64,000 nt of DNA from Luidia sarsii. Its lineage: Eukaryota; Echinodermata; Asteroidea; Paxillosida; Luidiidae. The notes under the pieces were generated by a model. The model saw nothing but the letters and a program-made list of their open reading frames with translations. It had not been told where the DNA came from and did not search any database. The stretch covers positions 1,067,764 to 1,131,763 of the forward strand of contig OX465113.1 of the NCBI GenBank assembly GCA_949987565.1, written 5' to 3'. Of this stretch, positions 5,215 through 43,915 are shown piece after piece; the stretch's first letter is position 1; each line of letters begins with the position of its first letter. Made by a program: the position numbers and the translations under genes.

Positions 5215-5332
5215 ATGGCGACGAAACCAAGTGTGTGGTCTTATTTCCGGGTTGGTGGCCAACTGCGTGCATTGGATTGGCGTGTTGGTGTACTGACACT
5301 GCTGATGTTTGTCTGCCTAACCCATCAAACAG
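5215..5332 (+). CDS. Gene A exon 1: signal peptide
   Basis: ATG 5215 opens a 39-residue leader with a basic/aromatic N-terminus, a hydrophobic core ([12 protein letters not shown]) and a polar end. It was too short and in a different frame from the longest open frame here, so it is easy to miss. The exon ends ACAG before GCAAGT at 5333, a classic GC-AG donor. The single overhanging G joins CA at 6019 to give Ala in frame with the Ig exon. The competing GT at 5338 would break the frame. Gene B has the same exon at 19082-19199 with one visible residue change (T3 to R). Confidence 0.85.

Positions 5333-43915: not shown

Follow-up and report, generated by a model that had tools for sequence, protein, structure and literature searches.

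Two neighboring receptor genes with opposite enzymes

Why should two neighboring genes carry nearly the same receptor ectodomain in front of enzymes that have opposite effects? The question is raised by a 64,000 bp stretch of the sea star Luidia sarsii genome (GenBank assembly GCA_949987565.1, contig OX465113.1, positions 1,067,764 to 1,131,763 of the forward strand; called the window below), in which gene A is predicted to encode a Tie-type receptor tyrosine kinase and gene B a receptor phosphatase with a Tie-type ectodomain. We think it probable, at about 60%, that A and B are paired receptors, kinase and phosphatase arms that share a near-identical Tie-type ectodomain and likely one ligand, with B likely damping A. 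A first-pass annotation had placed the two side by side on the same strand, a Tie-like ectodomain leading into a kinase in one and into tandem protein tyrosine phosphatase (PTP) domains in the other; exon models rebuilt by hand from the DNA confirm this, and both chains are open, without inner stops. Its coding sum for gene A (3903 nt) was recovered; that for gene B is divisible by three as claimed, but is 5142 rather than 5145 nt. The initial 30-exon, 5070 nt model of gene B did not include juxtamembrane exon 30061–30132, which was added after comparison with sea star relatives had revealed the gap. Splice sites of both genes are GT-AG, except for GC donors after both exon 1s and after exon 38159–38293. 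Both proteins have a signal segment, two Ig-like domains, four EGF exons, a run of 86–90 amino acid modules (four in A, five in B), one FN3 domain and one membrane span, in that order. The parts of gene A are:

4859–5214, + strand: 5′ flank of gene A, also present ahead of gene B at 18735–19081
5215–16582, + strand: gene A, predicted Tie-type receptor tyrosine kinase; 22 exons, 3903 nt, 1300 amino acids
6019–8898, + strand: exons 2–7, Ig1, Ig2 and four EGF exons; Tie2 similarity is that of the gene B equivalent, fold that of a 64% identical relative
9380–12430, + strand: exons 8–11, four Ig-like beta-sandwich modules of types X, Y, X, Y
12669–13034, + strand: exon 12, membrane-proximal FN3 (fn3 match), inside a 403 bp block 98.3% identical to gene B
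13320–13489, + strand: exon 13, transmembrane segment
13956–16582, + strand: exons 14–22, juxtamembrane part, kinase domain and short tail

The kinase domain of gene A is by its matches of Tie type. It scores 288 bits with PK_Tyr_Ser-Thr, and Tie2 is its top single-domain PDB match (284 bits); the EGFR chain 9p9u ranks above Tie2, in two stretches of ∼160 bits each. The catalytic Lys, HRD and DFG motifs are present and, as far as sequence tells, intact. The Ig-like modules have a predicted fold with a predicted local distance difference test score (pLDDT) of 87.5 and no specific family assignment. The parts of gene B are:

18735–19081, + strand: 5′ flank of gene B, matching that of gene A
19082–43915, + strand: gene B, predicted receptor phosphatase with Tie-type ectodomain; 31 exons, 5142 nt, 1713 amino acids, two Y_phosphatase stretches
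21471–24267, + strand: exons 2–7, Ig1, Ig2 and four EGF exons; Tie2 match at E 1e-28
24907–27842, + strand: exons 8–12, five modules of types Y, X, Y, Z, Y
28484–28849, + strand: exon 13, FN3; coding DNA 98.9% identical to gene A exon 12
28850–29530, + strand: junction intron, homologous to gene A as far as 28861, with a CCTC-type repeat at 29166–29409
29531–29651, + strand: exon 14, transmembrane segment of the phosphatase
30061–30132, + strand: exon 15, juxtamembrane, conserved in sea star relatives
31769–36338, + strand: exons 17–24, first phosphatase domain (D1), with KNRY, WPD, HCSAGVGRTG and Q-loop
36882–42074, + strand: exons 25–30, second phosphatase domain (D2), with HCIDALNRSG kept and WPK in place of WPD
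43733–43915, + strand: last exon, remainder of D2 and a tail bearing two YQN motifs

The predicted gene B product thus has what defines a receptor-type tandem PTP, namely one membrane span, a D1 with WPD and HC(X)5R, and a D2, the last probably weak or inactive. YxN-type motifs bind Grb2-type SH2 domains, and YxN is found at positions equivalent to the two YQN motifs in three sea star relatives (P0043, P0044 and P0045, below). Introns of the phosphatase part contain minisatellites at 33120–33446 (69 bp unit), 34628–35517 (19 bp) and 42819–43725 (76 bp).

A copied block that ends just past FN3

The likeness of A and B is far beyond chance and is not confined to exons. Collinear blastn blocks of 77–98% identity, introns included, join ∼4.1 kb–13046 to ∼17.5 kb–28861; the match stops 12 bp past the FN3 exon, and the enzyme switches right after it. 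The block holding exon 1 and the adjoining ∼350 bp of 5′ flank is 93.9% identical, aligned introns 89.8% and aligned exons 93.5% (a set that includes one non-matching module pair). The claim that exon order, lengths and phases match through FN3 stands for the frame, which is kept in all eight signal, Ig, EGF and FN3 exon pairs, and for length in six of the eight; Ig2 (+6) and the fourth EGF exon (−36) differ, both by multiples of three. Likewise, the module counts of four and five were right, but the modules do not correspond one to one (by similarity X-Y-X-Y in A and Y-X-Y-Z-Y in B). Mismatches are rarer in the FN3 block (7 of 403) than in exons 1–7 (79 of 1185 codon-aligned sites; p 5.8e-5), and exons other than the signal, first EGF and FN3 exons are 87.5–93% identical. 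This patchy likeness suits several conversion events.

Two rival explanations bear on this block. An assembly error, or two haplotypes placed in tandem, could find room in the ∼10% divergence of the aligned introns, which might fit a very polymorphic genome; however, each copy is followed by a different enzyme, the order and number of modules are not the same in the two, the window is without a single N, and comparable pairs are found among the proteins of other species, so that this is very improbable. It is also improbable, though somewhat less so, that the ectodomain copy and the phosphatase are separate genes, the copied exons giving a cut-off or secreted receptor and the phosphatase having its own start. 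The CCTC-type repeat in the junction intron, and the fact that the joint is predicted from DNA alone, leave some weight on that side; against it, both sides of the joint 28849^29531 are in phase 1, Acanthaster P0001 and P0169 join a Tie Ig-EGF part to the same phosphatase lineage, and P0043, P0044 and P0045 join an FN3 to it.

Class of the ectodomain and of the phosphatase

The A/B ectodomain has the Ig-Ig-EGF fold of the Tie2 ligand-binding domain, as read from the 64% identical relative. The Pfam family Ig_Tie2_1 scores 16.7 bits in A and 20.6 in B against a cut-off of 25, and passes it in four of 11 scanned relatives (P0001 28.9, P0002 27.0, P0169 32.0 and P0171 31.9); the other seven (P0008, P0012, P0028, P0029, P0031, P0144 and P0147) gave no match to it. 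The full vertebrate Tie layout, in which a third Ig and three FN3 repeats follow the EGF block (PMC8294587), is not that of A and B, where this place is taken by a single FN3 preceded by four or five Ig-like modules that belong to no named family.

The gene B phosphatase does not fall into the receptor classes considered. R2B phosphatases (PTPRK/M/T/U) have a MAM domain in the ectodomain, and no MAM match was found in gene B at E 0.1; its clade also stands apart from the kappa-named rows of the phosphatase tree, in which the deeper branching order is not resolved. Placement in R2A (LAR, PTPRS, PTPRF) is not supported by the tree, where B is absent from the 100/100 clade of the five LAR/S/F/delta-named rows; the R2A-type-named P0008, P0050, P0115 and P0116 likewise lie outside those five, and the top PDB matches of gene B, which are PTPRS chains, weigh against a placement outside R2A. 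The R3 (VE-PTP) type, with an FN3-only ectodomain and a single PTP domain, does not describe gene B.

Relatives in other echinoderms

The first-pass annotation had taken the DNA to be from a lancelet; the best protein matches are instead to sea stars, also for gene B by itself. In the phosphatase tree B lies within a sea star clade, nearer Acanthaster and Patiria than Asterias (90/70). Nor did the statement that no phosphatase with a Tie ectodomain is known survive, since the databases hold such proteins under names like "PTP T-like" or "uncharacterized". Besides Acanthaster P0001 and P0169, of the same phosphatase lineage as B, they are, by alignment with Tie-like ectodomains (on which the label rests for all but those two), sea urchin P0144 and P0147, sea cucumber P0012 and P0028–P0031, Patiria P0008 and P0114, Acanthaster P0065 and hemichordate P0046. 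The architecture is therefore not unique to the window. Of these phosphatases in the tree, only P0001 and P0169 fall in B's clade. In the literature searched, which covered few subscription journals, the passages available describe no Tie-ectodomain phosphatase; a 2006 sea urchin phosphatase survey reportedly includes lectin-bearing receptor phosphatases and may list relatives such as P0147.

Some relatives vary the theme. P0147 (Lytechinus pictus) has four C-type lectin domains ahead of its Tie-type ectodomain and tandem phosphatase, and the Tie-like kinase model P0002 (Asterias amurensis) has two complete or nearly complete Ig-Ig-EGF blocks. In Branchiostoma a ∼195 amino acid stretch is common to the Tie-2-like kinase P0041 and the PTPs P0116, P0138 and P0141 (47–50% identical), all four of which have fibrinogen C (PF00147) among their precomputed domains; sharing between kinases and phosphatases may reach beyond echinoderms.

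Recurrent matching of kinase and phosphatase ectodomains

Has the match between A and B arisen once, or repeatedly? A single clade (100/100), from which the remaining sea star phosphatases in the tree are excluded, unites the phosphatase domains of B, P0001, P0169, P0043 (Acanthaster), P0044 (Patiria) and P0045 (Asterias rubens). The ectodomains of these six were compared, over the 250 residues that precede the membrane, or as many of these as the model contains, among 24 chosen kinase, phosphatase and enzyme-less proteins. Four of the six have a kinase from their own genus as best match: B pairs with A in the window (81%), P0043 with Acanthaster P0010 (66%), P0044 with Patiria P0003 (84%) and P0045 with Asterias amurensis P0006 (89%). 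Past the membrane, the five listed matches of each phosphatase are the other five. Similarity within each of the four pairs drops away between FN3 and the membrane span, where the copied block in the window also ends. The three pairs within one species are not the same exons counted twice, because they are too unlike (66% and 84%) or plainly separate (the window).

FN3 trees recover the same four pairs, with support of 100/100, 100/99, 97/95 and 98/92 with 26 rows and 100/100, 100/99, 91/83 and 98/95 with 17. A single clade of the four phosphatase FN3 domains is rejected (approximately unbiased (AU) test, p 2.4e-6), as is one of the Ig-EGF parts of B, P0001 and P0169 (p 1.5e-54). In the 26-row tree the phosphatase label needs seven changes versus a shuffled mean of 8.2, and 134 of 500 shuffles were as low. 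The phosphatase clade is not mirrored by an ectodomain grouping, and therefore the ectodomains were not simply kept along the phosphatase lineage. On these trees that lineage predates the likeness of A and B, and in four sea star lineages kinase and phosphatase have come to match afresh in the membrane-proximal part of the ectodomain. Ectodomain exchange within a lineage, which is expected of paired receptors, is found for four of the six phosphatases, one pair spanning two species of Asterias. A further sister-ectodomain pair, Patiria kinase P0040 and phosphatase P0008 (100/100; 43% over 620 amino acids), lies outside B's phosphatase clade.

If equal listed size is taken to mean the same contig, which gives neither order nor distance, several relatives may be linked. 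P0001, P0043 and P0171 are listed with a 304,448 bp Acanthaster contig, P0044, P0008 and eight Tie-like kinases with a 46,651,055 bp Patiria scaffold, and P0045, P0009 and P0014 with a 17,180,802 bp Asterias rubens scaffold; P0040 and P0008 are listed with two different Patiria scaffold sizes.

A number of points weigh against paired receptors. For Acanthaster P0001 and P0169 the best match is not a kinase of their own genus (the ectodomain of P0001 is nearest Patiria kinases, and that of P0169, a model without FN3, is nearest P0001), and the Asterias pair joins A. rubens P0045 to A. amurensis P0006, the best A. rubens kinase being 61% identical. The comparison is limited to the membrane-proximal part of P0043, P0044 and P0045, because their models seem truncated at the N terminus; in the 17-row tree the Patiria pair carries no star (91/83), and the groups for the AU tests were named after the first tree had been seen. 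Kinase domains cluster by genus too, and kinase copies have therefore multiplied within lineages, although such multiplication alone does not put a kinase-like ectodomain onto a phosphatase. Within the window, FN3 (98.9%) is not the sole hot spot, since the signal exon (98.3%) and the first EGF exon (98.5%) are just as similar between A and B, and the ratio of nonsynonymous to synonymous substitution (dN/dS) in exons 1–7 is ∼0.7 (0.064/0.091), so constraint on both copies is weak. The A and B models themselves are predictions from DNA. Finally, D1 of the Apostichopus japonicus proteins P0012 and P0029 reads HCRDGSGSTG, without the catalytic Arg; these are probable pseudophosphatases, and not every Tie-type phosphatase therefore erases.

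Much of this would also suit drift, in which tandem duplication and conversion homogenize neighboring exons without function and B, with a borrowed ectodomain, reads no ligand in common with A. The dN/dS near 0.7, the scatter of the very similar exons (signal, first EGF and FN3), the two unmatched Acanthaster phosphatases and the ample chance for conversion among eight Tie-like kinases of one listed Patiria scaffold size all point that way. Drift does not easily explain why the match turns up in four lineages and each time fades between FN3 and membrane, nor why the frame is kept in every one of the eight exon pairs, and we consider it unlikely.

How a paired receptor might work

The paired-receptor interpretation starts from near-identical ectodomains, neighboring genes and opposite cytoplasmic outputs, the last read from the domain types. 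A single ligand would engage both A and B, and the common FN3 would let them meet in one complex, where D1 of B could clear phosphate from A or from its substrates; the B:A ratio would then set the gain and duration of the signal. The copied 5′ flank suggests that the two may be co-expressed. Their matching could be upheld by gene conversion or repeated copying, and kept because both must read the same ligand or pair through the membrane-adjacent FN3. The catalytic motifs of the kinase and of D1 both look intact. The writer/eraser pair that the first-pass annotation had suggested gains from the same-genus match in four sea star lineages. More tentatively, sea stars might possess a receptor class of their own, in which clusters of Tie-type kinases and a partner phosphatase repeatedly trade ectodomain exons, read the same ligand and form mixed dimers through FN3. 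The signal would then depend on how the two catalytic arms balance on one ligand, perhaps in coelomocyte immunity.

Other features of the window

Upstream of the receptor pair, an open frame at 721–1389 (+ strand) contains a Tctex-1 domain (88.3 bits; cut-off 22.8) and probably encodes a Tctex-family dynein light chain. A satellite with a 181 bp unit occupies 49585–52156 (∼14 copies) and 54106–60352 (∼35 copies), and is split by repeats with an 18 bp unit (52675–53198) and a 152 bp unit (53360–54101).

Comparison with known systems

Vertebrate paired receptors resemble A and B in having very similar ectodomains and opposite cytoplasmic outputs, and gene conversion keeps such receptors alike in the CEACAM (PMC5112662, PMC2832619) and CD300A/C (PMC12447643) families. 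In Siglec-11/16, the region containing the ligand-binding exon stays alike through repeated conversion while constraint is relaxed (PMC5701461), much as is seen in A and B. In these vertebrate receptors the arms signal through motifs (for CEACAM, immunoreceptor tyrosine-based inhibitory and switch motifs, ITIM/ITSM, and motifs like the activation motif ITAM), whereas the A and B arms carry their own predicted enzymes behind a Tie-type fold.

The kinase arm also has known counterparts in echinoderms. SpTie1/2, reported from sea urchin coelomocytes (in the title of a paper cited by PMC13409769 and PMC12113024), and the sea star Tie-like kinases have the same ectodomain type as A, and the literature passages searched name no ectodomain-matched phosphatase for them. 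Coelomocyte proteomics of Asterias rubens found a Tie-2-like kinase and a PTPRF-like phosphatase and remarked on their counterbalance (PMC13409769); from the passages available, these two could not be tied to the proteins compared here.

Another parallel is the Tie2/VE-PTP axis, where a receptor phosphatase likewise opposes a Tie kinase: VE-PTP (PTPRB) acts on Tie-2 (PMC10815196). VE-PTP is of the R3 type, with fibronectin repeats and a single PTP domain (PMC5336234), whereas B combines two PTP domains with an ectodomain of Tie type. The vertebrate opponent of Tie2 thus has an unrelated ectodomain; here the opponent has the kinase's own, matched by what appears to be repeated exchange. If confirmed, this would show that the paired-receptor rule holds for receptor enzymes as well as for motif-bearing immune receptors, and would provide a natural design for a self-balancing phosphotyrosine switch, in which it becomes directly testable whether a common ligand or a dimer contact selects for ectodomain conversion.
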